A model generated the notes under the pieces. That model saw only the letters and a list, made by a program, of their open reading frames with translations, was not told where the DNA came from and did no database searches. Position numbers and translations under genes: made by a program. Shown here piece by piece: positions 49,902-64,000 of a stretch of 64,000 nt of DNA. Numbering within the stretch: the stretch's first letter is position 1; every line of letters starts with the position of its first letter. Source of the DNA: a virus; the IMG/VR virus record IMGVR_UViG_3300028763_000010, positions 1 to 64,000 of that record; one strand, 5' to 3'.

Positions 49902-50143
49902 ATAATGCAATAGAAATTAATTATTCTCTTTTTAAAGATGGATTGGGAATGGATGAAATTAGAAATATGTTTTATTCATATTGGGAATCAAACACATTTC
50001 AAAATGATGCAGTATCAAAAGGACTTCTAGAATTTACAAAAGGAAGTAAATTTATTCAAATTAAAAATGAATCAAATGAAACTGTAAAAAGTATCTTAGT
50101 TGATAGTAATACAGGTTCAATAATAAAAATAAATCATGAGTAA
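49898..50143 (+). CDS. Small alpha/beta protein, 81 aa
   Basis: It starts MNNAIEINYSLFKDGLGMDE. An N-terminal helix is followed by strands ending IKINHE. It overlaps the DUF3871-like gene by 8 bases and may be translationally coupled to it. No motif is recognised. Confidence 0.5.
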   Translation: MNNAIEINYSLFKDGLGMDEIRNMFYSYWESNTFQNDAVSKGLLEFTKGSKFIQIKNESNETVKSILVDSNTGSIIKINHE

Positions 50144-51029
50144 AATATTCGATTTTAAATCAAACAATGTTCAAGAAATGGAACTTGATGTTCTAAAACA
50201 AACATATCATGAAAAAAACTTCGATGGTAAACCCTCTTTCAATGGTATCTATCACTATGAACTTATTGAACGTATTGCTGCTATAATAGCAAAAAACAAT
50301 ATCAACTTCAATATTGAGTCAATCTTTGCCGCTAACAACAAAAAGGCCGGTCGTGATGGTGTATCAGTATCAAAAGAATTAGAAGCTCAGTATGGAGATA
50401 ATTCTATTCAAGCGCATGTTCTTCGTCGCGTATTTACTACTATCCGGATTAATGATTTGGAAGATGATGAAACGAACACCGGTCTTGCAGTTGCATTTCA
50501 CCAAGATGGAATTCAGATAGCTATTGGCCCTAACGTAAAGATTTGTCATAACCAATGTATTCTTGCAGCTGACAGAATGATTTCTACTTATGGTGGAGAT
50601 GGCAAGATTAAAGACCTGGACAAAGTATTTCAAATCATTGATGATTGGATGCAGAACTTTACTGAGCAACGTTCACATGACCAAAAGGTAATATCGCGCA
50701 TGAAAGCAATTGAAGTGTCTTACAACGATACTATGGCGCTTATTGGCCGGTTGAATACTATACGTGTTGTAAAAGATTCTTCTGAAAAATCATTGAAGAA
50801 ACTTGAAGCAAATGTAGGTAGAAATTATCCTCTTAATCAAACACAGATTTCAACATTTGTTGAGAACTATCTATTGGAATGTATTAAGCGTGATTCTACG
50901 AATATGAGTTTGTGGGATATCTACAATATCTCTACTGAATTGTATAAGCCCGGGCAAACTGATTTTCCAAATATTATTGGACAGAACATTGCTTGGTCTG
51001 AGTTCTTAGTAAAAGAATATAATCTTTAA
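50136..51029 (+). CDS. DUF3871/DUF932-like protein, 297 aa
   Basis: The protein matches the general design of DUF932/DUF3871 proteins common in Bacteroidetes plasmids and phages: an alpha/beta N-terminal body with HNQCILAADRM at about residue 140, a long helix (215-240), and a closing segment SLWDIYNISTELYKPGQTDF that resembles their conserved YN(L/I)xT motif. The family is found near replication genes but has no proven activity. It is flanked by genes with close spacing. Confidence 0.5.
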   Translation: MSKIFDFKSNNVQEMELDVLKQTYHEKNFDGKPSFNGIYHYELIERIAAIIAKNNINFNIESIFAANNKKAGRDGVSVSKELEAQYGDNSIQAHVLRRVFTTIRINDLEDDETNTGLAVAFHQDGIQIAIGPNVKICHNQCILAADRMISTYGGDGKIKDLDKVFQIIDDWMQNFTEQRSHDQKVISRMKAIEVSYNDTMALIGRLNTIRVVKDSSEKSLKKLEANVGRNYPLNQTQISTFVENYLLECIKRDSTNMSLWDIYNISTELYKPGQTDFPNIIGQNIAWSEFLVKEYNL

Positions 51030-51039
51030 AAATATCATT

Positions 51040-51498
51040 ATGGAATTTGTTGTAAAAATAGAAGATAATTGGATTGAAAATATTTATATTGTTGATGAAA
51101 TAAAACATCAAATTATACAAAGTCTTTCAAAACAAATCACAGAAAATTTATTAGAAGGACATGTAAGATTAGTTGGTGAAATTGCAAGTAAAAAAGTTAT
51201 TGAATCATTTGATGCAATGGCAAATAAAGCAACTGCTGATTTTATTGAAACTGGTAAATTAAAATCAAGTAGAAGTTCGGCAATGATTAGTGTTGCAGAA
51301 TATATTGCTGAAAAATTTGAGTATAATTCAAATTACAATAGTCAAAAAGAATTGATTGAAAAACTTGCTAATAATTATTCTGTTGAAATGAAAAACAGAT
51401 ATGATATGATGTTTGCTTCTCAACTCGTTATAAAAATGAGTGAACAAGGTTTATTGAAAGAAGGAGTATTTGATTCATTGATGAAAAAGGATGAATAG
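51040..51498 (+). CDS. Helical protein, 152 aa
   Basis: It starts MEFVVKIEDNWIENIYIVDE and is mainly helical, with a Lys/Ser/Glu composition and no cysteines. AT-rich codons match the small accessory genes. No motif is recognised; it is in the replication operon. Confidence 0.5.
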   Translation: MEFVVKIEDNWIENIYIVDEIKHQIIQSLSKQITENLLEGHVRLVGEIASKKVIESFDAMANKATADFIETGKLKSSRSSAMISVAEYIAEKFEYNSNYNSQKELIEKLANNYSVEMKNRYDMMFASQLVIKMSEQGLLKEGVFDSLMKKDE

Positions 51499-51499
51499 C

Positions 51500-52105
51500 A
51501 TGAAAGACGTAAATATTGAAAATGCTTTTGTAGTATTGAAAGGTAATCACATGTCAAATGACATTGAGCTTGGTAGTATCTTTCTCGAATGTAAATGCGA
51601 ACGGTTCAAATTGAAAGTTCTTTCTTATGAACGTAAATTTAAAGATGGGAATACTATTTTTGAACTCGATATTGAAAATCCACATGATTTCAAAATGGCT
51701 GTATTTATCAATAATGAAGTGTCATTGAGTTATTGGACAAAGAAACGTTCTGATGTGTTTATCATTGGTATGATGCCAGTTATCTTAGCTGATGGAACAA
51801 TTCGATATTTTGTATTCAATCAGTTTGCAGAAGAAAAATTGTACATTGCTCCAGGTAATCATTTAGGAATGGAACTAACAGTAGTAAAATACAAAAGTTG
51901 TACTGCTACATTTGGTGAAGGACCTGGTTGGGCGACTATCTACAGTATCGATAGCCATCAAGAAGGACAAGGACATGCTCAGGAACTACTTATTCAAGCA
52001 AAAGCGTATTATTCCTTACTTGATAAAGAAATGGCTTCTACAGTAGCTTTAAACCCTACTGTGGAGCATATCTTGGAAAAACTTTCTATTAAAGAATACA
52101 AATAA
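51500..52105 (+). CDS. Protein of unknown function with GNAT-like segment, 201 aa
   Basis: The preferred start is at 51500 (MKDVNIENAFVVLKGN); an ATG at 51491 would add three residues. The protein is beta-rich, and near residue 155 the segment SIDSHQEGQGHAQELLIQAK resembles the acetyl-CoA-binding motif A of GNAT acetyltransferases (QxxGxGxA then a helix). The resemblance is short and the fold is not confirmed. It is the last gene before the folded RNA and terminator at 52151-52246. Confidence 0.5.
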   Translation: MKDVNIENAFVVLKGNHMSNDIELGSIFLECKCERFKLKVLSYERKFKDGNTIFELDIENPHDFKMAVFINNEVSLSYWTKKRSDVFIIGMMPVILADGTIRYFVFNQFAEEKLYIAPGNHLGMELTVVKYKSCTATFGEGPGWATIYSIDSHQEGQGHAQELLIQAKAYYSLLDKEMASTVALNPTVEHILEKLSIKEYK

Positions 52106-52150
52106 TTAGCGAATTGTTTGGTAAACTTATAGAATTGTCTTTTCTTTGCA

Positions 52151-52246
52151 GTGTTCAATCGGAGTGACTATCGAATGAACATTCGGTAGTACCCTTTTGA
52201 TACACTTAAGACCCCGAAGGAATGTCACTCCCTTTCGGGGTTTTTT
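52151..52246 (+). ncRNA. Folded RNA with pseudoknot potential and intrinsic terminator
   Basis: An outer stem pairs GTGTTCAA with TTGA-T-ACAC, enclosing a 10-bp hairpin (ACTATCGAAT-GAAC-ATTCGGTAGT). The unpaired GGAGTGAC (52161-52168) is perfectly complementary to GTCACTCC in the loop of the following terminator (CCCCGAA with TTCGGGG at 52212-52240, then six T). This arrangement could form a pseudoknot or an alternative pairing that controls termination. It lies between two genes and has no coding frame. Confidence 0.55.
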
Positions 52247-52260
52247 GCGTTTAATAATTA

Positions 52261-53046
52261 ATGAATATGCGTACAATAAAATTATCTATATCACAAGCTA
52301 AATTGGCAGTACAATCTAAGAGTAGATTGGAAGCTTTAGCATTTGCTATTCAGATAAAAGGTATGTATGTTTCATCTTGTCTAATGGATTGCTCTTCTAG
52401 TGATAAAAGTATAAAATACTCTAAGCTAAAAGAGCAATTTCATTTAGGACATGACAAGATTAAGAGAATAATAAAAAATGGTATTGAATATAAATATATT
52501 CGATTTGAAAATGGAAAATTAATAGCTAATAAAATGTATTCTGAAAAAGAATTAATTATTCGTCTTGATTTCAATTCAAAAGAATCTCTTTATAACAATA
52601 ATCAGATAAAATCTCTTATTCAAAAAACAGTTATTATTGACCATATCAATAAAATTTCATTTATCAATGATACAATATATACGGTGAAGAATTGTAAAGT
52701 TTCTTATAAACAAAGAAAAACAGCAATGAAAAAATTATATAAGTATGCAGTGAATATTCCAAATGAATTAATAGGATTGAGTTATGATAGCATTTCTAAA
52801 ATTGCAAATGTAAATAAAAACAAAGCCATTTTTTATATCAAAGAGTTAGTGAGTAAAAATGTAATAAATAAGTCAGTAAATCTTATTTTTACTGGTATTA
52901 AAGCTAAATCAAAAGATAAATCAATTCAAATTGAATATAAGAAAAATGGTAATAGTGGCTATTTAAGAAAAATAAATTATATGTATTACATACAAAGCAG
53001 TAATATATATTCTATATCCAATTTTAGTTTAATTAAGTATGCATGA
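52261..53046 (+). CDS. Winged-helix-type DNA-binding protein, 261 aa
   Basis: Two helix-turn-helix-like segments are visible: KYSKLKEQFHLGHDKIKRII at about residue 52, and SYDSISKIANVNKNKAIFYI at about 183, each followed by a strand pair. Codons are strongly AT-rich (AAA, ATT, AAT), more so than in flanking replication genes. It could be a replication initiator or transcription factor. It starts 15 bases after the terminator of the folded RNA. Confidence 0.55.
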   Translation: MNMRTIKLSISQAKLAVQSKSRLEALAFAIQIKGMYVSSCLMDCSSSDKSIKYSKLKEQFHLGHDKIKRIIKNGIEYKYIRFENGKLIANKMYSEKELIIRLDFNSKESLYNNNQIKSLIQKTVIIDHINKISFINDTIYTVKNCKVSYKQRKTAMKKLYKYAVNIPNELIGLSYDSISKIANVNKNKAIFYIKELVSKNVINKSVNLIFTGIKAKSKDKSIQIEYKKNGNSGYLRKINYMYYIQSSNIYSISNFSLIKYA

Positions 53047-53090
53047 TTTCTTCACCCAAATATATGTGTAATAAAATAGGAGAGTAATAT

Positions 53091-53411
53091 ATGTCAATGA
53101 ATAAAGAATTAATTGATAAATATGTTTTCAATTCAATTAAATATGGTTCTAAAGCAGAACAACTTTTATTGAGTAAATTAATGATGTCTAATATTGATTT
53201 TAAATATAAATATAAAGTGCCTAATGATATAACTTATTACATGGCAAATTTTTATATTCCACATAAAAATATAATTATCAATATTAGTCTTTCTATAAAT
53301 GTCAAACAAGCAGAAATTGTCAAAGATGATTTTTGTAAAAGCAAAGGTTTTAAAGTCATTCGTATTTTAGAATCAAACATTTCCTCATTTGATATTTCCT
53401 CTGTGCTATAA
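53091..53411 (+). CDS. DUF559/VSR-type nuclease fold with lost catalytic residues, 106 aa
   Basis: The segment SKAEQLLLSKLMMSNIDFKY, then MANFYIPHKNIIINIS and KSKGFKVIRILESNI, follows the DUF559 (very-short-patch repair-like) pattern of conserved AE, DFY, EvDG and G(Y/F)xVIR. Here the key Asp of DFY is Asn and the E-x-D-G region reads INIS, so it is probably not an active nuclease. It follows the winged-helix gene by 44 bases and is AT-rich like it. Confidence 0.55.
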   Translation: MSMNKELIDKYVFNSIKYGSKAEQLLLSKLMMSNIDFKYKYKVPNDITYYMANFYIPHKNIIINISLSINVKQAEIVKDDFCKSKGFKVIRILESNISSFDISSVL

Positions 53412-53441
53412 CTGCACAAACAAATCTATATTTATTTTATT

Positions 53442-55112
53442 ATGAATGAAATTGTTCAAATTCCATTAGTGTATATTGTTGCGTCCAAGTTAAACCCTCG
53501 GAAAACAATAAACCAAGACTCTATAATTGAGTTATCACAAAGTATTAAATCAGTAGGGTTGTTGCAGCCTATTACTGTACGTAAAATTGAAGAAGATGAT
53601 TATCCAACAAATGATGTTTATGAAGTAATCATGGGTTATCGTCGTTATTGTGCATGTAGTCATCTTGGAATGACAACAATGCCATGTATCATTGTAGAAA
53701 TGGATGATGAAGAAGTACTGGATGCAATGATCATTGAGAACTTACAACGCCAGGATATCGAACCTATGGATGAAGCGCGGGCATTTGCTAACCTCAATAA
53801 CAAAGGTTGGACTGGTGAAGATATTGCTGTAAAGGTTGGTAAGCCGGTTCTATTTGTAATGCATAGAATACGCTTGCTTGAGCTTATTGCTGAGTTTGTA
53901 AAAATGTTTGATGAAAATGAATTATCCATTTCTCATGCTTATGAATTATGTAAGCTTGACAAAGATATTCAGTTAGATATTTACAAAACTCGTTATAGCG
54001 AAGAAGCCAGTGATTACTATCGGTGGAATGATCTTAATCTAAAAGATTTAAAATCGAAAATACAAAATCTTGCAAAGAACTTAGACAATGCTTCTTTTAG
54101 CTTGGCTGAGTGTATTACTTGTCAGTTTTGTACTTCTATCCATGGTTCTTTATTCCCGGACTACAAAATCAATTCTTGTACTAATAGCTTCTGTTATGAT
54201 GATAAAATCTTTGAACATCGTATGAACAATATTATTCTTGCACATGAAGAAGATACTACTATTATGATTCGTTCATTAGGTACAAGTAATCGGGTTCTTG
54301 ATAAGCTGAAAGAATTGCATATACCAGTTGTAGTGTTTAGTACCGAAGAATACGATTTTGAGCATGATAAGAGCGATGATCTATCCTTTCATGATAAAAT
54401 GGTCAAGAAAGGATTTGAAGCTGTTTACGGGCTTGATACATGGTCTGGTGGTGATAAGATGTTTTATATAAAAGCAAAGATTACCAAAAAAGATATTGCT
54501 GCTGCAGGAACAGTTCATCCGGAACTTATAAAGCTTGACAAAGACCTTGTTCGTAAAGAGGAAATCAAAGAGGAAAAGATTAATGCTGATCTTAGAAGTC
54601 TTATTTCCGGTAGTAACTATCGTGAGATAAGTACACCACTACTTCCTATTGAAGAAACTGCTTTTATGGCTGTCATATTCTATATGGCTTCTAACAGTAA
54701 ATTAAAAGAGATAAGAACAAAATTCAAGAAAGATTTGTCTTACATGGAAAACATACAAAACATGTTACCCGAGGATATTATTACATTGAAACGCTGCTTT
54801 ATCAAACAATGTATTGTTGGAACAGAAGTAACTCATGATGCAGATGTACAGAATATCCTTTCAAACATTTCTAATGTCTTTTACTCAGATAAGTTTGGGG
54901 AGATTGTCGAAGAACATACGGCTACATGTAACAAACGTAAGGATCGTATTGCTATTCGTAAACAAGTCATTCTTGATGAATTGAATCCAGTAAAGAAAGA
55001 ACTTGTTGAAAAGAAAACAGTATCATTAGCTGATGCTGATGCACAGGTACCTTATATCCCTAAGCAAAAAGAAGAAAATGAATATGTCAAATTTGGTAAC
55101 ATTGGAGAATAA
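53442..55112 (+). CDS. ParB-like protein with zinc-binding insert, 556 aa
   Basis: Residues 1-110 form the ParB/Srx domain with LNPRKT (box I) and IENLQRQDIEPMDEA (box II). A helix-turn-helix follows (about 125-150). Residues 225-260 contain six cysteines (ECITCQFCTS and NSCTNSFC). The C-terminal half is helical and lysine-rich. ParB-like proteins in crAss-like phages are thought to act in replication or transcription rather than partition, because no ParA is next to it. It overlaps the methyltransferase start by 32 bases. Confidence 0.8.
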   Translation: MNEIVQIPLVYIVASKLNPRKTINQDSIIELSQSIKSVGLLQPITVRKIEEDDYPTNDVYEVIMGYRRYCACSHLGMTTMPCIIVEMDDEEVLDAMIIENLQRQDIEPMDEARAFANLNNKGWTGEDIAVKVGKPVLFVMHRIRLLELIAEFVKMFDENELSISHAYELCKLDKDIQLDIYKTRYSEEASDYYRWNDLNLKDLKSKIQNLAKNLDNASFSLAECITCQFCTSIHGSLFPDYKINSCTNSFCYDDKIFEHRMNNIILAHEEDTTIMIRSLGTSNRVLDKLKELHIPVVVFSTEEYDFEHDKSDDLSFHDKMVKKGFEAVYGLDTWSGGDKMFYIKAKITKKDIAAAGTVHPELIKLDKDLVRKEEIKEEKINADLRSLISGSNYREISTPLLPIEETAFMAVIFYMASNSKLKEIRTKFKKDLSYMENIQNMLPEDIITLKRCFIKQCIVGTEVTHDADVQNILSNISNVFYSDKFGEIVEEHTATCNKRKDRIAIRKQVILDELNPVKKELVEKKTVSLADADAQVPYIPKQKEENEYVKFGNIGE

Positions 55113-56061
55113 TCAATTAGATAAGGATTTAATAAAAGAACACAATGAATTAATCAAATCAAAAAGCAAATCTCCTAGGATATATGAAATTCGAATGGCC
55201 ATTTTTAAAAAATATAAATGTACATGGGATGATGAAACCGGATTAATTTATTTAGACCTTGATTATAATCCAATTAAAGAAAGTTCAAACAAAAAAGAAC
55301 AAGTAAAAAAACAAATAAGTGAAATTTCTATGAATGCAAAAAACATATTATTACAATGTACAGTAGTACAAAATCGCGTATATCTACCGGACGAACAAAT
55401 CGACCGTAAGCTTTATATGGAAGTTGCAAAAGCGTTAGAACTTATCGGTGGTAAATGGACTGGTGGTAAAATAAAGGCCTTTGTGTTTGCTGAGGACCCA
55501 ACAGATTTATTAGCCGAGATAGCTAGTGGTGAAAAACGTAATCTAAAGAAAGAACATCAATTCTTTGGTACTCCGCCAGAACTTGCTGACAGACTTATAG
55601 AACTTGCTCAATTAAACAACTTTGATCGTGTTCTAGAGCCTAGTGCCGGACAAGGTGCTATCGTTGAAGCAATGCAACGCAAATGGCATAATATCGTGCC
55701 TACATGTGTTGAGAATATGGGACTCAATTCTATTGTTCTTACAAAGAAACAGATTACCCATTTCTTTCAAGACTTTCTTACTTCAGAATGTAGTAAGCCA
55801 TTTGATAAGGTTATCGCTAATCCACCATTCACAAAGAATCAGGATATTGATCATATCTATAAAATGGTAGAAGTCTGTAAACCCGGGGGAATAGTGGTAT
55901 CATGTGCTTCTAATCATTGGAGAGAATCAAAGAACAAGAAAGAAACTGAGTTCAGAGCTTTTCTTGATGGTATGGGTGCTGTTATCGAAGAAATACCAGC
56001 CGGTACCTTTAAAGAAAGTGGAACTATGATTGCAGCTTGTATTGTAATCATTCATGTATGA
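55081..56061 (+). CDS. N6-adenine DNA methyltransferase
   Basis: Motif I of SAM-dependent methyltransferases is VLEPSAGQGAIVEAM (about residue 195) and the catalytic NPPF motif is VIANPPFTKNQ (about 260), as in N6-adenine enzymes. The N-terminal 100 residues are a lysine-rich helical extension. I prefer the start at 55081 (MNMSNLVTLENN); 55087 is possible. It may protect phage DNA against host restriction. It ends in an ATGA overlap with the next gene. Confidence 0.85.
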   Translation, partial: NMSNLVTLENNQLDKDLIKEHNELIKSKSKSPRIYEIRMAIFKKYKCTWDDETGLIYLDLDYNPIKESSNKKEQVKKQISEISMNAKNILLQCTVVQNRVYLPDEQIDRKLYMEVAKALELIGGKWTGGKIKAFVFAEDPTDLLAEIASGEKRNLKKEHQFFGTPPELADRLIELAQLNNFDRVLEPSAGQGAIVEAMQRKWHNIVPTCVENMGLNSIVLTKKQITHFFQDFLTSECSKPFDKVIANPPFTKNQDIDHIYKMVEVCKPGGIVVSCASNHWRESKNKKETEFRAFLDGMGAVIEEIPAGTFKESGTMIAACIVIIHV

Positions 56062-56267
56062 CAAACGATAGTACCTTGAATAATGACCTATTTGCTATGT
56101 ATCAAGAGCAAGAAGCCCTTGAATTTAGTAGATGGGTCAATTCGGTAGAGAAGCATGTAAGTACGCTTAAAACGAAGCTATGTAAGTCATGCAACAAAAA
56201 CAAATTAGAAGTAGTAAGTATGTATAAAGCAGAATGTACAAATTGTCTAACATTAAACTCATTTTAA
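56058..56267 (+). CDS. Small zinc-ribbon protein, 69 aa
   Basis: The ATG at 56058 overlaps the methyltransferase stop (ATGA). CKSCNKNK (residues 42-49) and CTNC (60-63) form a zinc ribbon at the C-terminus. It is probably a nucleic-acid or protein-binding accessory translated together with the methyltransferase. Confidence 0.55.
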   Translation: MTNDSTLNNDLFAMYQEQEALEFSRWVNSVEKHVSTLKTKLCKSCNKNKLEVVSMYKAECTNCLTLNSF

Positions 56268-56268
56268 A

Positions 56269-56532
56269 ATGAAAAGAGAAAATATAAAACGTGCTTCTGA
56301 ATTAAGTTCTGAAATAACTGGACTTGAACAATTGCTAGAAGATATAAAACTTCAAGAAAAAACCAAAATTGTAAGTGGATTTTCAATTATGATTCCAGCA
56401 AATAGAAATTCATCTGGAGTTTCTATTACTAGATATATATCAAAAGAAATGAGAGATATATTAGTAATTCTAGCTAAAAATGAAGTAGAAAGAATTATTG
56501 CTGAAAAAGAAAAAGAAATCGAAACACTTTAA
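56269..56532 (+). CDS. Helical protein, 87 aa
   Basis: It starts MKRENIKRASELSSEITGLE and is a two-helix protein with a short polar loop between. It starts 1 base after the zinc-ribbon gene. No motif is recognised. Confidence 0.5.
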   Translation: MKRENIKRASELSSEITGLEQLLEDIKLQEKTKIVSGFSIMIPANRNSSGVSITRYISKEMRDILVILAKNEVERIIAEKEKEIETL

Positions 56533-56542
56533 ATAACACAAC

Positions 56543-56827
56543 ATGTCACAAGAAATAGAAAAGTTTATATCATTAATTAGAGATTCGTTTGTTGGTTCTC
56601 AGCAAGTATATACAAATGGAAGTTGTTATCATTTTTATCTTATACTTAAAAATATATATCCAAGTGCAAAATGTTGGTATGATGAAAGTCATATTATTAC
56701 AGAAATTGATGGTAAGTTTTATGACATTACTGGAGAAGTACAAAAAAATTCAAATCTTTTAATTATGGATCATCCAGCTCATTATAGTTTAAAAAATCCA
56801 TTTAATATTTACAATATACAAAAATAA
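56543..56827 (+). CDS. Small phage protein with GSCYHFYLIL motif, 94 aa
   Basis: GSCYHFYLILKNIYPSAK followed by HIITEIDGKFYDITGE matches a widespread small phage protein group of unknown function. It resembles a papain-like arrangement (Cys near the N-terminus, His and Asp later), but activity is unproven. It lies 4 bases before the ATPase gene. Confidence 0.55.
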   Translation: MSQEIEKFISLIRDSFVGSQQVYTNGSCYHFYLILKNIYPSAKCWYDESHIITEIDGKFYDITGEVQKNSNLLIMDHPAHYSLKNPFNIYNIQK

Positions 56828-56831
56828 AAAT

Positions 56832-58307
56832 ATGTCAGAAATTAAAATTCATATCAAGAATTACAAACTTCTCAAAGAAGGAGAATGGGATTTATCAAAT
56901 GGTACTATCTTCTTCGCACAAGGCGGAAACAAAAAAGGTAAGACTTCTTTCTTGAATCTTATCCAAGCACTCATGGAAGTAAAAGATACTACTGTCAATC
57001 CAGTAACTTTTGGTGAGAAAGAAGGATTTGCTACCGGTACAATACCTGGCGCTGATGGTTTACAATACCAATTTCGTTACGACTTTAATATTGATGGTAA
57101 GAACAAATTTCAGTTCATTGCTCCAGACAATAAAGTTGTCAAAGGAATTACTGAAATGCGCGCTATCTTCAATTATACTCATTTTACATTGGAAGAGTTC
57201 TTTGAATGGAGTAAAACAGAACCGGGCCGTGCTAAACAACGTGCTATCTTCATGAACTTACTTTCAGAAAAAGAACGTGAAGAGATAATGAAAATAGATG
57301 CTGAGATTCATCCTACAAAAGGAACAATGATCGATTCGCGTAAAGAATTGAATAAGTCAGTTGACTTCTTGAAAAAGAGTATTGACAATATCGTATTCAA
57401 TCCGGAACAACAAAAACTTATTACTGATGCTCCGGCTATTCAAAAGTTGTTTACTGAACTTACTGCTCGTAAAGAAGAGATTGATGAAACAATTAAAGGA
57501 TTCGATACTTATCAAGTGAAGTTGGATGCAGAAAATGAAAAACTGGATCCACTAAAAAAATCACATAATAAGCAAGTGGAAAGTCTTACTAACTCCATTC
57601 GTTTTGCCAAAGAAGAAATTGACCGTCTTACCAAAGAATTGGCAGCCGATGAAAAGAAACTGGAAACTGAGAATGCTGAGTACGAAACTTCTGAAAAAGC
57701 AATCACTGCAGCAATCACTGAATTGAATACTAAGTTCGATGTGAAAGTACTTGAAGCTGCAAAATTAGAATTAGATGGTGATGGTACTGAAAAGAATATT
57801 GGTCTTGCCAAACGATTAGAGATTGGCCAGACAAAAATCAATCAGTATAATCAATTGGATGTATTAGTAAAACAAAAAGCAAAGAATGAAGAAGATCATA
57901 AAAAGAAGGAAAGTGAAGTTAGTGAGTTGGACGAGAAGATTACGACTCTCCGCACCAAGAAAAAGGAAATCATCAAAAACAGTCAGAACATGCCGGTTGG
58001 TTGGTCGATTGATGATGATTATGTTACTATCGATAATATTCCTTTTCTGGAAACTGATATTTGTAAGTCGGAAGCGACTGCTGCTATTGCTCAATTGATG
58101 ATGCGCGTAAATAAGGCTCCATTGATGCTTATGGGCGATGCTGAGGCCTTGGGATATGAAGTACTCAATAAGCTTGAGGAAACAGCTAAGAGTCTTGGTA
58201 AGGTAATGCTATTCGCTGAACATGTTCGTTCTGCTGATGAAATGCAGTTGGTTGGTTATGATCAAATCGACCATGAAGTAAAGAAAGAAGATAAAGAATT
58301 ATTTTAA
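56832..58307 (+). CDS. SbcC/Rad50-like recombination ATPase
   Basis: Walker A GGNKKGKTS (about residue 31) at the N-terminus, a coiled-coil middle (residues 170-400) and a C-terminal Walker B-like segment (PLMLMGDAEALGYEV, about 435) are the layout of SMC/RecF/Rad50-type ATPases, in a small phage version like T4 gp46. It would tether or process DNA ends with a nuclease partner, possibly the Cas4/RecB-like protein downstream. The gene lies immediately before the RyR-Tad2 pair. Confidence 0.8.
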   Translation: MSEIKIHIKNYKLLKEGEWDLSNGTIFFAQGGNKKGKTSFLNLIQALMEVKDTTVNPVTFGEKEGFATGTIPGADGLQYQFRYDFNIDGKNKFQFIAPDNKVVKGITEMRAIFNYTHFTLEEFFEWSKTEPGRAKQRAIFMNLLSEKEREEIMKIDAEIHPTKGTMIDSRKELNKSVDFLKKSIDNIVFNPEQQKLITDAPAIQKLFTELTARKEEIDETIKGFDTYQVKLDAENEKLDPLKKSHNKQVESLTNSIRFAKEEIDRLTKELAADEKKLETENAEYETSEKAITAAITELNTKFDVKVLEAAKLELDGDGTEKNIGLAKRLEIGQTKINQYNQLDVLVKQKAKNEEDHKKKESEVSELDEKITTLRTKKKEIIKNSQNMPVGWSIDDDYVTIDNIPFLETDICKSEATAAIAQLMMRVNKAPLMLMGDAEALGYEVLNKLEETAKSLGKVMLFAEHVRSADEMQLVGYDQIDHEVKKEDKELF

Positions 58308-58310
58308 TAA

Positions 58311-58337
58311 CTAGAACCTTCTCACTGGTATAGGTAA
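58311..58337 (+). promoter_or_regulatory. Leader motif before the RyR gene (copy 1)
   Basis: CTAGAACCT, 7 bases, then GGTATAGGTAA. ACCT can pair with AGGT to form a small hairpin. The same motif recurs at 58733-58757 before the Tad2-like gene. It lies 14 bases before the ATG at 58352. Confidence 0.5.
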
Positions 58338-58351
58338 AGTGATATTCTATT

Positions 58352-58720
58352 ATGAGTGAAAATACTGGTTCAAGACCTGCAAGTATTGCAGAAGTTATTG
58401 CTCCTATTTGCTATCAAGCAAATAAAGCATTTTGCGAAAGTTATGGTGATTATTCTCAAAAAGATTGGTATCAAGCCGATGATTGGCAAAAACAAAGTGC
58501 TATTAAAGGTGTACAATTTCGTATTGAAAATCCGGATGCTGGACATGATGCACAGCATAATTCATGGATGGCTGAAAAAGTTGCTGATGGATGGGTATAT
58601 GGAGAAAGTAAAAATGCAGAAGCAAAAACTCATTCATGTATTGTTTCTTTCGAACAATTACCTATTTTCCAACAAAAGAAGGATGCATTATTCTGTGCTA
58701 TTGTAGATTCTTTGAAATAA
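58352..58720 (+). CDS. RyR-domain protein, 122 aa
   Basis: The protein is almost only a RyR domain (ryanodine receptor repeat, PF02026): ANKAFCESYGDYSQKDW, then QKQSAIKGVQFRIENPDAG, AQHNSWMAEKVADGWVYG and HSCIVSFEQLPIFQQKKDAL, all family motifs in order. The domain binds or has been predicted to bind nucleotide-derived ligands. Its neighbour is a Tad2-type protein that sequesters such a signal. A joint role in blocking a nucleotide-signalling defence is an inference. Codons match the replication genes. Confidence 0.85.
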   Translation: MSENTGSRPASIAEVIAPICYQANKAFCESYGDYSQKDWYQADDWQKQSAIKGVQFRIENPDAGHDAQHNSWMAEKVADGWVYGESKNAEAKTHSCIVSFEQLPIFQQKKDALFCAIVDSLK

Positions 58721-58732
58721 AACTAAAACCTA

Positions 58733-58757
58733 GTGCGGTATAGGTAAGCCAATCAAT
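58733..58757 (+). promoter_or_regulatory. Leader motif before the Tad2 gene (copy 2)
   Basis: CTAAAACCT, 5 bases, then GGTATAGGTAA. ACCTA and TAGGT can pair around a loop, as in copy 1 at 58311-58337. The motif lies 4 bases before the ATG at 58762. Confidence 0.5.
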
Positions 58758-58761
58758 AATT

Positions 58762-59088
58762 ATGGATTTTATACAAGCTATCAACACTTATCCAATGATT
58801 CAAAGAATTGGATGGAATGGTAACGGACTATTTGTATTTCAACAAATACCTTCTGAAATACCAATTTTTGTTGTCCTAAAAATGCAATCATTACCTGAAG
58901 CAGTAAAAGATGAATTTGCACGTCGTTTTGAAGTTCCAATGACAAAAGAAGAAGCAAAACCATTTTTGTCTATTCGTTACAACAATCAATTAGCAATAGT
59001 TGATAAGGAAAACAATATCAATGGATGGGCACCTTCTGTTTCTGATGCATTGGCCGAGGATTGGATTGGATATATACCGGAGGTTTAA
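58762..59088 (+). CDS. tad2: DUF2829 protein, Tad2-like (Thoeris anti-defence candidate)
   Basis: The 108-residue protein shows the DUF2829 pattern: MIQRIGWNGNGLFVF near the N-terminus and INGWAPSVSDALAEDWIGY at the end, with VVLKMQSLP and IRYNNQLAIV between. DUF2829 proteins include Tad2, which binds the signal molecule (gcADPR-type) of Thoeris systems and blocks NAD depletion. This copy has the Trp, Ser-Asp and Glu-Asp-Trp positions of the family. Binding of a particular ligand is inference. It is preceded by a RyR-domain gene. Confidence 0.8.
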   Translation: MDFIQAINTYPMIQRIGWNGNGLFVFQQIPSEIPIFVVLKMQSLPEAVKDEFARRFEVPMTKEEAKPFLSIRYNNQLAIVDKENNINGWAPSVSDALAEDWIGYIPEV

Positions 59089-59089
59089 A

Positions 59090-59455
59090 ATGGGAAAAGT
59101 ATCAACAATTGATACCAAACGCAATCTTTGTGGTAATTGTAAAAGCAGCTACCCTGATTGCACTGGTCAGCCGGAATTTGGCGATAATGTCGGAAATAAT
59201 AATGTTATCCGATGTAAGAAGTATGTAAAGAAAAAAACAAATGTTGTTCGCGTATCAGTAGGTGAAGAGTATTTTGTTTATATTTTGAAAAATCAAAATG
59301 TTTCTATGAATGATTTCATTTCAAGAAAAAGAGTAGAAACAAACAACACTACAGATAATCTGTATTATGAAGTTGGAAACTATTTTCTGACAGAGGGAGA
59401 TTGCAAATCAGAGATTGAACGAGTAACAAAATTGAAACGTAATGGCACAAGGTAA
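59090..59455 (+). CDS. Cys-rich protein, 121 aa
   Basis: The ATG at 59090 (MGKVSTIDTKRNLC) starts 1 base after the Tad2-like gene. CGNCKSSYPDCTGQ with a later RCKKY gives a four-cysteine zinc site in the first 45 residues; the rest is alpha/beta. It overlaps the SSB-like gene by 14 bases. Function is unknown. Confidence 0.55.
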   Translation: MGKVSTIDTKRNLCGNCKSSYPDCTGQPEFGDNVGNNNVIRCKKYVKKKTNVVRVSVGEEYFVYILKNQNVSMNDFISRKRVETNNTTDNLYYEVGNYFLTEGDCKSEIERVTKLKRNGTR

Positions 59456-60065
59456 ATTAATCAGTTTCGTACCACTGATGAAAAATGGCGTACAAGATAC
59501 ATATAGTGGAAGTAATGGTATGCTTTATAAGTTTACTGTTACTCTTGATAATGCCGGTACACAAGTAACCGGAACAGCAAATAGTAGCAAACAACAACCA
59601 TCATGGAAGATTGGTGAAGAATATACTTATGAAGTAGCAATACAAGGAAACTATACCAATATCAAAAATATGAAGTCTATAAATCAGGCTGGTGGTTTTG
59701 GTGGCAGTGGTGCTCGTGTTCCTAATCCTAGCTTTGTAGTACAGAAATGTCTTGAAGCTTCATTGGAATGTACTTTCAAATTCTTTGAACTTAATCCGGA
59801 TGTGTACAAAAGTCAAGCTGCAGAAGATGGTGTATTGAATTTGTTCTATACATTCACATTAAAAGGTGATGAACAACAACGATGGATGAATATTGCCGGA
59901 CTTCGCTTTGCCTTACAAAAGATGCAAGCGAATGGTATGTTTGATAAAGCAGAAGGAGTAACACTTACTGCGTGGACTATTGAAAAGGCTAAAACTATTG
60001 CAGCTTCTATGTCCTCAGTAGTAAAAGCTCAAGTAGAATTTGAAAAGGCTAATCCACCCAAATAA
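59442..60065 (+). CDS. OB-fold SSB-like protein, 207 aa
   Basis: Residues 1-90 have the OB-fold strand pattern (GMLYKFTVTLDNAGTQVTGT then EYTYEVAIQGNYTNIKNM), followed by a glycine linker and a helical C-terminal half. The position between the recombination ATPase block and the Cas4/RecB-like nuclease fits a single-stranded DNA-binding recombination protein. It lacks an acidic DDxPF tip and ends in EKANPPK, unlike the other SSB-like protein at 31525-31953. Confidence 0.5.
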   Translation: MAQGKLISFVPLMKNGVQDTYSGSNGMLYKFTVTLDNAGTQVTGTANSSKQQPSWKIGEEYTYEVAIQGNYTNIKNMKSINQAGGFGGSGARVPNPSFVVQKCLEASLECTFKFFELNPDVYKSQAAEDGVLNLFYTFTLKGDEQQRWMNIAGLRFALQKMQANGMFDKAEGVTLTAWTIEKAKTIAASMSSVVKAQVEFEKANPPK

Positions 60066-60068
60066 TTT

Positions 60069-60215
60069 ATGCCAGATAGATATTCAATTAAAAAGAATAA
60101 AGAGAATGGATTATTTAATGTTTATTTTGGAACAATGTATTGTTTTACTTATGATACTTATCAAGAAGCAAAAGACCATATTCAAAATATGAAAAAACGA
60201 TATAAAAATGAGTAA
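60069..60215 (+). CDS. Small basic protein, 48 aa
   Basis: The ATG at 60069 opens a 48-codon frame (MPDRYSIKKNKENGLFNVYF) ending at 60215, overlapping the nuclease start by 8 bases. It is compact and basic at its C-terminus. No function is known. Confidence 0.5.
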   Translation: MPDRYSIKKNKENGLFNVYFGTMYCFTYDTYQEAKDHIQNMKKRYKNE

Positions 60216-61140
60216 GACATATATCAATCAGTCATTAATAAAAAAGTTCTTCTACAAAGGAGAAAAACGTGATTACTGTGCTATGGCCATAAAGGCTAAT
60301 ACTATTGATAAAACAGTAAGTCGGGAATCACTATCAATGACATGTGGTAATTATTTTGAAACACAATGTCTGGGTGCTTCTATTGGTGGCAAGAAAACAC
60401 TTGATTTGCCAAGAAAGAAACTTACTGCTAAGCAAATTCTTGCCGGTCAAACAATAGGTGATAAAAAAATTGATCAGATACGTATTGACCAGCAAGTGAT
60501 GATGTTCAACAAACTCAAAACTGAATATCAGATACCAATAGAGAAAGAGATGAATACCCAAGTCGGTGTAAAGAAAATATGGAGTAAGAATGACAATATT
60601 ATCTTACAAGGTGAGATTGATATATTCCCTGCTTCTATTGCATTACCGACACGTGGTTTACGACTTTGTGCTATTGATTTAAAGCTTACTGGTACATTCT
60701 CTGACTATGGTGAGTTCTGTTGGGGTTCTCCAACTAATTTAGACGGCATACAAGGCAAGATGTATCATGAGTTGATACGTGACATTGATTTGGACTTTAA
60801 TATGCAGGAAAACCCTAATAGTACAATTCATCAAGTTTTTACTCCAACAGTAAGAAACATATTAAAGAACAACGATCCTTTATTCTTCTTTTGGGTATTC
60901 AATTATAAAGAAGCAATAAACAATAAATTTATTGAAGTAGAATATAACAAACTTGCTCAGGCAGAACTTCATGAATCTATCCGTAGAACTGTAGAAGAAT
61001 TGAATAAGAATGAACGTGATAACTGGCAAGGTATGGTTCCTAATATTGATAACTGTAGCCAATGCGCGTTGCTATCTTGTCCTTCCCGAACAGAGAAAAA
61101 AAAAGAAATAGAAGAACAACAAAATTTCGAAGTCATTTAA
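60208..61140 (+). CDS. PD-(D/E)XK nuclease with Cas4-like cysteine cluster
   Basis: The nuclease core is GEIDIFP (about residue 136) followed by CAIDLKL (about 154), the conserved Asp and Asp-x-Lys. A Cys at about residue 24 and a C-terminal CSQCALLSC (about residues 285-293) resemble the 4Fe-4S cluster of Cas4/AddB-type exonucleases. A Lys-rich tail follows. Together with the SbcC-like ATPase and SSB-like protein it forms the recombination module. The iron-sulphur cluster is inferred. Confidence 0.75.
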   Translation: MSKTYINQSLIKKFFYKGEKRDYCAMAIKANTIDKTVSRESLSMTCGNYFETQCLGASIGGKKTLDLPRKKLTAKQILAGQTIGDKKIDQIRIDQQVMMFNKLKTEYQIPIEKEMNTQVGVKKIWSKNDNIILQGEIDIFPASIALPTRGLRLCAIDLKLTGTFSDYGEFCWGSPTNLDGIQGKMYHELIRDIDLDFNMQENPNSTIHQVFTPTVRNILKNNDPLFFFWVFNYKEAINNKFIEVEYNKLAQAELHESIRRTVEELNKNERDNWQGMVPNIDNCSQCALLSCPSRTEKKKEIEEQQNFEVI

Positions 61141-61337
61141 TGAGTAACGAAAATATCAAATCAGCTATGAATACCTACAATAATGCAATGTTGCTGCGTA
61201 GGTATTTGTTGTCTGACTATATCAAATCAAGAATAGATACAAAAGAGCTTATAAAGGGCATTCAAATGTGTGAAATACTTATTATTACTAATGCATTAAT
61301 TATAAATAAAAATGGCCGGATGGACGAAAGCAGATAG
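61140..61337 (+). CDS. Small helical protein, 65 aa
   Basis: The ATG at 61140 overlaps the nuclease stop by 1 base (TAATG). MSNENIKSAMNTYNNAMLLR starts a helical protein, and the gene overlaps the RusA gene by 26 bases. Function is unknown. Confidence 0.5.
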   Translation: MSNENIKSAMNTYNNAMLLRRYLLSDYIKSRIDTKELIKGIQMCEILIITNALIINKNGRMDESR

Positions 61338-62025
61338 AGCAAAGTTTCTTGAACGATGTGATTCAAGAAAGAATATAATGCCACAAGAAGTAATATCAAC
61401 ACAAGGTAGTCTTTTTGAAGAAGTCATTGAAACAGACAGTGTAAATCCTCGATATCAGAAATTACGATTAGTATTACTCTATCCGGAACTTGATACAAAT
61501 GAAAAAGGTAATCCTATTCCTAAGCAATCAGCGCGTTTTATGGTTACCCGTTATAGTAATGGACCCAAGAAAGGAGAAATCCTTGTTTATCCAAATAAGC
61601 ATACCGGTAAGCCTGATGTACTTATTAAATCATATCAAGATGCACGTATCACCAATACAGTAAAAGCATTACAATTACAAGTATTGAAGCAACTTGGAGA
61701 AATATCATTTACTAAGTTTCGTGGTGCTGTATTTGTTACTCGTCTTGAATTTATATTTAAAGTATCTGATTCGGCACCTAAGTACATGAAAGATGATCTT
61801 ACTGCCGGTACTAAGATTTACTTTAAAGATACGGCTCCCGATTTAGATAACCTTGAAAAGATGATATGGGATGCTATGCAAGCTGAAAAGGCTGAGAAAG
61901 ATGTAAAGAATGCTCTTGTAGGTCTTGTGTATGATAATGATGCACAGATAGTATCTAAGAATGGTATTTTTAAACGCTGGGGTCTTAGGCCAGGCGTCAT
62001 CGTAGAAATGGAAGGCCCAATTTAA
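61312..62025 (+). CDS. RusA-like Holliday junction resolvase
   Basis: The RusA signature occurs near the C-terminus: APDLDNLEKMIWDAM and LVYDNDAQIV (about residues 180-212), giving the catalytic Asp residues of the family. The N-terminal 75 residues are an extension. RusA resolves four-way junctions made in recombination and replication. It closes the recombination cluster that contains the SbcC-like, SSB-like and Cas4-like proteins. Confidence 0.8.
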   Translation: MAGWTKADRAKFLERCDSRKNIMPQEVISTQGSLFEEVIETDSVNPRYQKLRLVLLYPELDTNEKGNPIPKQSARFMVTRYSNGPKKGEILVYPNKHTGKPDVLIKSYQDARITNTVKALQLQVLKQLGEISFTKFRGAVFVTRLEFIFKVSDSAPKYMKDDLTAGTKIYFKDTAPDLDNLEKMIWDAMQAEKAEKDVKNALVGLVYDNDAQIVSKNGIFKRWGLRPGVIVEMEGPI

Positions 62026-62035
62026 TAAATATTGT

Positions 62036-62236
62036 ATGATTGAAATTAAAAAAGGAATTGTATTTACTGATGAAAAAAAGGATATACAATATACTATTTC
62101 CTTAGTAACTAAAACAATTGTTCAAGTTACATATGAAGGAGAAATGGTTGAATTTACAAGAGAAGAATTTGAAAGTATAAATAAGTTATCACGATTTGAA
62201 ACAGTGAAAAATGATAAAAAGAAAAGAGCTAACTAA
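62036..62236 (+). CDS. Small protein, 66 aa
   Basis: It starts MIEIKKGIVFTDEKKDIQYT and is made of strands followed by a helix, with no motif. It overlaps the next gene by 26 bases. Function unknown. Confidence 0.5.
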   Translation: MIEIKKGIVFTDEKKDIQYTISLVTKTIVQVTYEGEMVEFTREEFESINKLSRFETVKNDKKKRAN

Positions 62237-62762
62237 CTACACTAATTCCATAAAGGAAAACATATTTGAAATATACGATAATAAAAAGCATCGGTTATCA
62301 AATGAATATTTATCATTAGATGCTATTAAAAGTCTTTGTGATTGTTCTCTTGCTAAACGTAAAGGTAAAGAAGCTAATTTTAAATCATTTGGATTAAGTA
62401 ATAATGCCGTTGAACAATACTATGATTATAACTTTGAGGTATTCATAAAGGATAGTGTTGAATATTATCTTGCAATGGCCTATATTCAACTAATTGCTTA
62501 TGGTTGGATACATGGTATGGAAATAAGTTTTGAACGCTCTAAATCGATTGATTTCATCCGTTTTAATTCAGCAGATTGTATTACTATAATAGTATCTGAA
62601 CTACAGTTTGAAGAACATCCAAAAATGGAAAAGATAATTAATCAAATGCTATTTCTTATTGAACTTCTTTGTCGACAATGGAAAATTGATTTACATTCTA
62701 TAGTAGACCAAACAATAAAATATATTCAAGTAAATAATAAATACAAAATACATGAAGTATGA
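62211..62762 (+). CDS. Helical protein, possibly MazG-type, 183 aa
   Basis: The C-terminal half is helical, and LIELLCRQWKIDLHSIVDQT with a final KYIQVNN resembles the last helix of all-alpha NTP pyrophosphatases. The acidic metal-binding EExxE motif is not clear, so this is a weak assignment. The gene lies next to a better MazG candidate at the right end and overlaps the next gene by 4 bases. Confidence 0.45.
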   Translation: MIKRKELTNYTNSIKENIFEIYDNKKHRLSNEYLSLDAIKSLCDCSLAKRKGKEANFKSFGLSNNAVEQYYDYNFEVFIKDSVEYYLAMAYIQLIAYGWIHGMEISFERSKSIDFIRFNSADCITIIVSELQFEEHPKMEKIINQMLFLIELLCRQWKIDLHSIVDQTIKYIQVNNKYKIHEV

Positions 62763-63136
62763 TTCCAACAAAATTTTATACTAAAGCAGAAGTTGCTGAA
62801 AAAGAATCAAGAGTAGAAGCATTGATATATCTTGTTCATCAGCTTGCGGACATACAAGAAGGATATATTCTTGATGCAATGGAAATACTGAAAGATGTAG
62901 GTGATTACCGGTTCCGTATAAAACAAGATATTGATAAGTTGAAACACCTTACCGGAACACTTCGAGAAGAAGTATGGAAACGAAACAAAGATAATATTTC
63001 TGCTGTCGTATTATTTGGAGAAGAAAGTGAATCACTCAAAAACGTAATTGAGAATTTCTTCTTTAATCTTGATCTTAATGAAATGGTTCCGGCATGTACT
63101 GACACAAATGACATTTATCATGAAAAACATAACTAA
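62759..63136 (+). CDS. Helical protein, 125 aa
   Basis: MIPTKFYTKAEVAEKESRVE begins a protein dominated by helices (residues 8-50 and 55-85). No catalytic motif. It overlaps the next gene by 17 bases. Function unknown. Confidence 0.5.
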   Translation: MIPTKFYTKAEVAEKESRVEALIYLVHQLADIQEGYILDAMEILKDVGDYRFRIKQDIDKLKHLTGTLREEVWKRNKDNISAVVLFGEESESLKNVIENFFFNLDLNEMVPACTDTNDIYHEKHN

Positions 63137-63434
63137 TCTAGCAAAGCAATATGCTACTGAAATACTAAAGAGTAATTCTTTTGATAGTATTCATAGTTTT
63201 ATTGAAAATGGATATATCAATGGATTTAATAAATGTGATGAATTTATTGATATGACATTATTAAAGCATCCAATGAATACTGATATCATAGTAAAAACCC
63301 ATAAAGGGAGTACTTACTTTGGTAAATTCATTTTAATATATGATAATGTTCTATTTCGACCAGACCTTACTAAAGGTGATGAAGATTTAAAATTTGAATA
63401 TATAAAAGAATGGAAAAACGTAATTAATAAATAA
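63120..63434 (+). CDS. Protein of unknown function, 104 aa
   Basis: The start at 63120 (MKNITNLAKQYATEILKSNS) lies at the end of the preceding gene and gives a compact alpha/beta protein. Upstream ATGs would overlap the preceding gene by 90 bases. No motif is recognised. Confidence 0.5.
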   Translation: MKNITNLAKQYATEILKSNSFDSIHSFIENGYINGFNKCDEFIDMTLLKHPMNTDIIVKTHKGSTYFGKFILIYDNVLFRPDLTKGDEDLKFEYIKEWKNVINK

Positions 63435-63439
63435 GTAAT

Positions 63440-63685
63440 ATGACAATAGATAATTCAAACAATTGGATAATAATGACAACTGAACATGTTGTTTTATTTC
63501 AAGGGTCAAAAGAAATGATACAAACAACTTGGGACTGCAATACTCGTACATTAGAGGACTTACAAAGTGAGTATCGACATCTTTATACTGCAGAAGTAAT
63601 GAAGAAGATTTATGAAGAAGAACAGATTGATTACAAAGGAGAATTATTATTAATGGAAATACATAACAGCTTAGTCAATGATTAA
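63440..63685 (+). CDS. Small protein, 81 aa
   Basis: It starts MTIDNSNNWIIMTTEHVVLF, with strands and then a helix (YTAEVMKKIYEEEQIDYKGE). It overlaps the MazG-like gene by 8 bases. No motif. Confidence 0.5.
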   Translation: MTIDNSNNWIIMTTEHVVLFQGSKEMIQTTWDCNTRTLEDLQSEYRHLYTAEVMKKIYEEEQIDYKGELLLMEIHNSLVND

Positions 63686-64000
63686 AGTAAGAGATATCAC
63701 CGAAGCAAAAGCAATTGATTTGTTTACTTCTCAGTTTGGAAATGATGTTCTTTCTCGTTTTGATAAATTCAAAGAAGAAGTAAAAGAATTATATGAAGCA
63801 TTTGATGAATATGAAACATATATTGCTAATGATGTTGTAATGCCACCAGAAGCATTAGAACACCTATTAGACGAGTTTTCTGACGTTCAAGGTACGTTTA
63901 CTCATCTATCTAGTTTATTTGGCTTATATCAACAAGAAATGCTTCATAACTGTATAGACAAAGTAACAGGTAGAATGATTGATCCAAACTATAAAAGAAA
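63678..64000 (+). CDS. MazG-like nucleotide pyrophosphatase, N-terminal 107 residues
   Basis: An ATG at 63678 opens a frame that runs off the right edge. KFKEEVKELYEAF (about residues 30-42) and LLDEFSDVQGTFTHLSSLFG (about 71-90) match the EExxE...DExxD metal-binding pattern of all-alpha NTP pyrophosphatases. Such proteins adjust nucleotide pools or degrade alarmones in infection. The C-terminus is missing. Confidence 0.7.
   Translation, partial: MIKVRDITEAKAIDLFTSQFGNDVLSRFDKFKEEVKELYEAFDEYETYIANDVVMPPEALEHLLDEFSDVQGTFTHLSSLFGLYQQEMLHNCIDKVTGRMIDPNYKR

Follow-up and report, generated by a model that had tools for sequence, protein, structure and literature searches.

Two genes behind a repeated leader

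Two small genes lie side by side on the plus strand of the window, the term used here for the whole 64 kb stretch of DNA that was analysed, which belongs to a virus contig of 85,743 bases. The first, at 58352-58720, encodes a protein of 122 amino acids that is nearly a pure RyR domain, and the second, at 58762-59088, encodes a Tad2-like (DUF2829) protein of 108 amino acids, which carries a long insertion like those of HgmTad2 and SptTad2. Both open reading frames are as the preliminary description gave them, and Pfam bears out both assignments: the first protein scores 36.4 bits with PF02026 (E 6.1e-9; cut-off 27.4) and the second 40.7 bits with PF11195 (E 3.6e-10; cut-off 25). Each gene follows a leader on the same strand, at 58309-58351 upstream of the RyR gene and at 58721-58761 between the two genes, and the leaders share the 11-base core GGTATAGGTAA, at 58327-58337 and 58737-58747. 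That one leader motif stands before both genes had been claimed from the outset, and the core indeed has exactly two copies in the 64 kb, counting both strands (at 58327 and 58737).

The pair had also been placed between recombination genes, and this is borne out in part: downstream, a RusA gene lies at 61312-62025 (PF05866, E 2.8e-12); upstream, the sole strong match of a 491-residue protein with the motif GGNKKGKTSFLN is to phrog_1499 (E 2.2e-25), a PHROG of unknown function. A ParB-like protein is encoded at 53442-55112, and a methyltransferase-like protein, with matches in PHROGs and Pfam matches below cut-off, at 55033-56061. Directly 3' of the Tad2 gene there is a gene for a 121-residue protein (59090-59455), present also in two sister contigs (L014 and L017), for which Pfam gave no match and PHROGs a best match of E 0.087. 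Searched at the near-DNA level with window positions 50000-64000, the phage collection gave no match, and the plasmid collection, searched with the RyR region, gave a single weak one.

The terminase, portal and capsid proteins match head-and-packaging families of PHROGs (phrog_6681, 4.5e-59; phrog_6547, 1.8e-42; phrog_11589, 6.7e-30). The terminase matches 134 phage records, which by name include Bacteroides, Flavobacterium and CrAssphage records; the best 12 of the 134 are 27-29% identical to it and, almost without exception, come from uncultured phages of faeces of the cr50_1/cr55_1 kind, which we take to belong to the crAss-like group. On these sequence grounds the virus is read as a distant crAss-like phage, and its host is therefore probably a member of the Bacteroidota. 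Phages of the crAss-like group are abundant, and little is known of their counter-defences. Beyond the window, at 64001-83900 of the same genome (L419), the minus strand has two long open frames (4717 and 1729 codons), presumably those of the giant RNA polymerase proteins expected of crAss-like phages.

Five sister contigs (L014-L018) retain the Tad2 gene, whose product is 79% identical in L014, but have no match to PF02026, and in all five the homology to the window breaks off at 58337 and restarts at 58721. The stretch that they lack (58338-58720, plus strand) consists of the end of a leader and the RyR gene, and is flanked by the leader copies; sister L017 has a single leader, preceding Tad2, against two in the window. 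The clean break and the one leader against two thus indicate that a cassette of leader plus RyR gene has been gained or lost beside Tad2, and either direction fits the alignments. Two of the sisters (L015 and L018) are equal to the window from about 59500 onwards and sister-like before that point, a mosaic that reflects either recombination or an assembly chimera. Another variable spot lies at 56300-56800, where identity to the sisters falls to 44-66% between flanks of 89% and 97%.

Family relationships of the two proteins

In the literature found, phage RyR proteins were first tied to immune evasion in May 2026, in a bioRxiv preprint of 29 May (PMC13232231) whose accessible text describes how they defeat Thoeris. 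According to that text, RyDEP (phage RyR-domain Defense Evasion Protein), the founding member from a Mycobacterium phage, acts by cleavage: it is a glycosidase that converts 2'cADPR and 3'cADPR into linear ADP-ribose through the catalytic pair H75 and D117, Q54 is among the residues mutated by the authors, and the gene sits in an immune-evasion (NARP1) locus. The same text states that six of eight other phage homologues bind the signals, that two form no stable complex, and that none of the eight degrades the signals in spite of high conservation; two homologues, one of a Ruegeria phage and the other of a Pectobacterium phage, are nanomolar binders which sequester the signal and rescue phages from Thoeris. 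Free-standing RyR proteins of Mycobacterium, Ruegeria and Pectobacterium phages are therefore already on record in this role, so the suggestion that such a protein would be new here has to be withdrawn, and RyR proteins are not taken as evidence of a wholly new role.

The RyR protein of the window matches phrog_5154 (E 4.8e-42), and its AlphaFold model (pLDDT 93.3) is a bundle of four helices. When the model was compared with the PDB by Foldseek, each of the best 50 of 239 matches was to a ryanodine receptor or to a bacterial RyR-like protein; of the matches listed only the best one, 6uhi, had E <0.001 (4.1e-4), and Repeat12 complexes with ATP, ADP and AMP-PCP were also present. The RyDEP structure, 35tm, was not among these best 50 of 239 in a structure library that ends in April 2026. 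Alignment with the RyDEP reference sequence (gp78 of GenBank MN234187.1, identical to the sequence in PDB 35tm) places the RyDEP ligand residues H75, W78, H100 and D117 at H69, W72, H94 and D111 of the window protein, all four being retained, and these positions are invariant in an alignment of 60 sequences made up of the window protein and 59 viral relatives chosen by similarity.

Retention of the catalytic pair, as H69 and D111, may leave room for hydrolysis by the window protein. It lends some colour to a reading in which the RyR protein would be a RyDEP-type enzyme that turns 2'cADPR and 3'cADPR into linear ADP-ribose and Tad2 a separate sponge, degradation being combined with sequestration, as does the location of RyDEP itself in an immune-evasion locus. 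We nevertheless regard an enzyme of this kind as improbable. According to the accessible text of PMC13232231, the signals were degraded by none of the eight other homologues. The window protein is only 28% identical to RyDEP, against 47% to its relative in Ruegeria phage vB_RpoP-V21 and 44% to that in Pectobacterium phage Nepra, and the characterised sponges come from phages of both these genera, the proteins compared here being matched to the preprint's tested homologues by phage host genus only. RyDEP Q54 falls on S49 of the window protein in one alignment and on A50 in another, so that the position is not Q under either gap placement, nor is it Q in the two relatives from vB_RpoP-V21 and Nepra. 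Finally, no NARP1 (NAD-salvage) enzyme was found among 18 window proteins scanned by family (Pfam and PHROGs). In all likelihood the RyR protein would be a non-enzymatic sponge of RyDEP type.

Relatives of this protein occur in 279 of 50,697 phage records (E 1e-3), and nearly free-standing proteins hold 127 of the 183 distinct RyR domains. A further 18 of the 183 bear a C-terminal extension of 145-182 residues (for example L028:5989-6861), and the extended RyR protein of Pseudomonas phage Baskent_P6 (Hollowayvirus) is encoded among virion and structural genes; some RyR proteins therefore look like virion proteins, and a RyR domain does not always mean a sponge. A role unrelated to immune signals, for instance in the virion or as an accessory to replication, might draw on this case, and on the presence of RyR genes among the replication genes of Schitoviridae phages of Ruegeria and Pectobacterium. 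Such a role is highly improbable for the window protein, which has no extension and adjoins Tad2, and the homologues tested in PMC13232231 from one Ruegeria and one Pectobacterium phage are Thoeris sponges according to its accessible text. In Salmonella phage vB-SalM-PM10 the RyR protein (L025:5449-6321) has an N-terminal Phage_gp49_66 domain (PF13876).

The second protein of the window matches the HgmTad2/AcrIIA7 and SptTad2 chains at E 1.1e-8 to 1.7e-8 (phmmer). Tad2 is characterised as a homotetramer whose two gcADPR pockets lie between protomers. The AlphaFold model of the window protein, made as a monomer (pLDDT 87.5), gave 24 structural matches at E <0.001, every one of them to Tad2/AcrIIA7; the best was 8kbi (E 7.4e-9, TM-score 0.74 by query length), then 8kbk, 8kbj and 8wjd, so that the matches run in order from HgmTad2 (AcrIIA7), alone or with 1',2'-cADPR and with or without cGG, to SptTad2 with cGG and ModTad2 with hisADPR. 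The long insertion aligns with the insertions of HgmTad2 and SptTad2, and it is through its long insertion that Tad2 binds cyclic dinucleotides, separately from the gcADPR pockets, in the accessible account of the review PMC12043709. With this insertion, the window protein may well also sponge the cyclic dinucleotides of CBASS. The family assignments of both window proteins are firm. In Bacteroides phage BS162P1 a Tad2 domain is joined in one protein to a crAss001_48 domain (PF21825; L030:5656-6282).

RyR, Tad2 and the Acb2/Tad1 hairpin in other genomes

It had been proposed that RyR-DUF2829 neighbourhoods be sought in other phages, and the search did reveal them, in four lineages with adjacent genes and three fusions, though in only 3 of 76 viral records and in none of 11 named phages. 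The contrary outcome envisaged in the preliminary description, RyR homologues never lying beside DUF2829 or other anti-defence genes, did not occur: both Tad2 and the Acb2/Tad1 hairpin (PF24729) were found as neighbours. Adjacent genes are seen in the window population, in L065 and L094, where RyR precedes a separate Tad2 with 29 and 18 nt between the domains, and, reversed, in L261/L262, where Tad2 precedes RyR at 92 nt. The DNA of L261 and L262 is 99.9% identical, so these two represent one phage, and the Tad2 gene of L261 is in two frames. Three contigs, L063, L194 and L269, encode RyR and Tad2 in one frame, each product matching both Pfam models: L063 (1820-2437, 205 residues, RyR then Tad2) at 1.8e-11 for PF02026 and 2.9e-22 for PF11195, L194 at 1.2e-11 and 4.9e-23, and L269, from a Bacteroidetes metagenome-assembled genome, at 2.1e-11 and 1.1e-17. 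The three fusion proteins are 46-48% identical in pairs and have different linkers, and the only alignable DNA between their loci is a stretch of 233 bases of RyR-coding sequence shared at 71% by L194 and L269. One gene upstream of the L063 fusion there is an Acb2/Tad1-like gene (1219-1482), which brings three sponge domains together in 1.3 kb. The intervening gene (L063:1479-1820) encodes a protein of 113 residues, a candidate new counter-defence protein.

Single frames that encode RyR and then the hairpin were found in three lineages above the Pfam cut-off of 27, namely Sulfitobacter phage phiCB2047-B (AGH07415.1, 33.4 bits), L008 (33.7 bits) with its near-copy L271 (34.0 bits), and L061 (29.4 bits), and in two below it, L145 (25.2 bits) and L068 (22.4 bits); the L008 and L271 proteins are 99% identical and were counted as one phage and one lineage. 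In Bacillus canaveralius (L287) a separate hairpin gene (PF24729, 5.8e-26) precedes RyR, with 25 nt between the domains, and in Tenacibaculum phage Gundel_1 a hairpin gene, at 27.4 bits barely above cut-off, precedes Tad2. An assembly error could in principle produce a fusion in a metagenome, but the occurrence of three RyR-Tad2 fusions with different linkers speaks against this source, as does a RyR-hairpin fusion that GenBank records for a phage of a cultured host. Distant relatives of the window terminase are encoded on the L065, L061 and L068 contigs, and none was found in L063, L094, L194 or L262, some of which are short fragments; this patchy distribution suggests that the RyR-Tad2 pairings are spread over different phages.

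Several other candidates were discarded. The tblastn match of Acidovorax phage AP1 to the L063 fusion covered residues 45-205 of the latter, and the N-terminal part of the AP1 protein is not RyR. Partial fusions in L128, L192, L197, L216 and L228 failed on inspection (L129 shares the match of L128), and L207, L283 and L303 were left out of the counts of pairs, their Tad2 being 2.5-4 kb from RyR, though on the same strand. A short N-terminal domain of the type GYLVxYxDGYxSWSP, for which Pfam gave no match, stands ahead of RyR in Pectobacterium phage Nepra and ahead of Tad2 both in Acidovorax phage AP1 and in L262 (L021:5785-6000; L117:5983-6216; L262:4674-5000). Single BLASTP comparisons of this domain gave E 1e-7 and 9e-5, a hint that RyR and Tad2 may be swapped on a common scaffold.

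For a quantitative estimate, viral contigs were scanned with an RyR alignment, giving at least 577 relatives, of which the best 80 were kept: three from the window population, L097, which was left out of the search, and 76 records that were searched whole with Pfam models. The 76 are not all independent, as 12 of 77 such loci are repeats of an identical RyR domain. Within this set (the best 80 of at least 577), Tad2 (PF11195) was present in 3 of the 76 non-window records (0/5, 2/50 and 1/21), in each case directly 3' of RyR and within 100 nt (P 3.9e-5 by position alone); PF11195 was found in none of the 11 named RyR phages. The hairpin was present in 11 of the 76 (6/50 and 5/26), nine of the matches being above cut-off, and in 1 of the 11 named phages. 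With hairpin positions placed by hand against the RyR coordinates, 10 of the 11 lie within 1 kb of RyR, where 1.1 would be expected by position alone (P 9.5e-11): the hairpin is fused to RyR in G008, G037 and G044 (the last below cut-off), separate but within 1 kb in G022, G028, G083, G039, G050, G009 and, weakly, G084, and far from RyR in G074.

By in-house profiles, on bacterial genome contigs, Tad2 or the hairpin lies within 1 kb of RyR in 4 of 72 distinct loci (73 in total), and Tad2 lies farther off in two more of the 72, a modest excess (4 against 2, P 0.024). Seen from Tad2 the association is thin: around 80 Tad2-anchored viral loci, RyR was found within 1 kb in one, which is the same L063 fusion, and the in-house hairpin profile gave a match within 1 kb in seven, among them L342 and L349, its own seed loci. 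Over 137 distinct loci, the in-house hairpin profile and Tad2 together gave 16 matches within 1 kb of RyR against two farther away. Of the six seeds of this profile, five were drawn from loci with RyR and one from a neighbour of Tad2, which is why the independent Pfam counts are preferred; the same bias affects the seven hairpin matches around Tad2. In a RyR tree with 16 of 158 inner branches strongly supported, seven Tad2-linked rows fall in seven places, with L261 (two Tad2 pieces) and L194 (second-domain match E 2e-3) both labelled simply as Tad2-linked; such scatter suits repeated origins of the pairing but proves little.

Some of these observations would also suit two independent anti-defence genes that share a spot for accessory genes and do not act jointly. 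The RyR cassette is present or absent among near relatives while Tad2 is constant, Tad2 is an unusual companion of RyR (3 of 76), and anti-CBASS genes tend to sit in anti-defence islands, as the accessible text of PMC11722364 has it. A shared spot of this kind leaves unexplained, however, the RyR-Tad2 fusions in three contigs and the RyR-hairpin fusions in three lineages above and two below cut-off, as well as the leader common to both window genes, and we consider it rather unlikely, if less so than an enzymatic RyR protein.

A candidate modular counter-defence locus

We consider it probable that the two genes, accessory to the crAss-like phage that carries them, form a pair for counter-defence, in which a RyDEP-type RyR sponge and a Tad2 sponge are combined as modules. 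By analogy with their characterised relatives, sponge function is likely for the window pair; the ligands, the lack of catalysis and the joint action are what we infer for it. The RyR protein would be a small, helical, non-enzymatic sponge (the solved relative is dimeric), whose predicted pocket of H69, W72, H94 and D111 could hold 2'cADPR or 3'cADPR, the signals of Thoeris TIR enzymes. Tad2 would serve as a second sponge, for ADP-ribose-type signals, and between them the two would cut effectors off from TIR-derived and perhaps also from cGAS-like signals. As some known ligands are common to both families, a phage could do with one of the genes; the advantage of carrying the pair may lie in breadth (isomers, hisADPR, cyclic dinucleotides), in capacity, or in insurance against escape. 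The combined anti-signalling sponge put forward in the preliminary description is upheld in part: both families include binders of ADP-ribose-type signals and the pairing recurs, fusions included, but the RyR role is not new.

More broadly, RyR, Tad2 and the Acb2/Tad1 hairpin have been combined repeatedly, as neighbours or in one polypeptide, into what would be compound sponges. The forms of this kit are RyR-Tad2 and RyR-hairpin, as neighbours and as single polypeptides, and hairpin-Tad2 as neighbours. It is tempting to suggest, and we incline somewhat to this view, that phages build multi-ligand sponges from the kit, so that one locus or protein may neutralise both Thoeris and CBASS signals, and that the window is its two-gene form, in which Tad2 is resident and the RyR cassette next to it is gained and lost. 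Such modular combinations of RyR, Tad2 and Acb2/Tad1 have not been described, as far as our literature search reached: by exact-word match in the open literature, no paper joins RyR with Acb2 and phage, and none RyR with Tad2, 'RyR domain' and 'Thoeris' occur together in PMC13232231 alone, and the words Tad1 and Tad2 are absent from the main text of that preprint. The natural RyR-Tad2 and RyR-hairpin fusions tie the RyR family to established sponges independently of the preprint's biochemistry, and each is one protein for which binding of two classes of immune signal is predicted. Such fusions may also lead to further sponges, through domains of unknown function fused to known ones or lodged between them, such as the 113-residue protein of L063.

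Among known systems, Tad1/Acb2 resembles the present locus through its PF24729 hairpin, a sponge domain that other loci have next to RyR or joined to it, but the hairpin was not found in the window's own genome. The RyR protein is like the RyDEP family in its PF02026 domain, its nearly free-standing form, its four ligand residues and its four helices; it differs from RyDEP in its low identity, in lacking Q at the position of Q54, and in that it adjoins Tad2 where RyDEP sits in a NARP1 locus. The likeness of the second protein to known Tad2 proteins (HgmTad2/AcrIIA7, SptTad2, ModTad2 and SPO1 Tad2) extends to PF11195, the motifs RxGWNGxG and WxPSxSDxLAxDW and the predicted fold, and it shares the long insertion with HgmTad2 and SptTad2, although it is only about 27% identical to HgmTad2. 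Unlike these known Tad2 proteins, it is encoded beside a RyR gene, and the two genes have the same leader.
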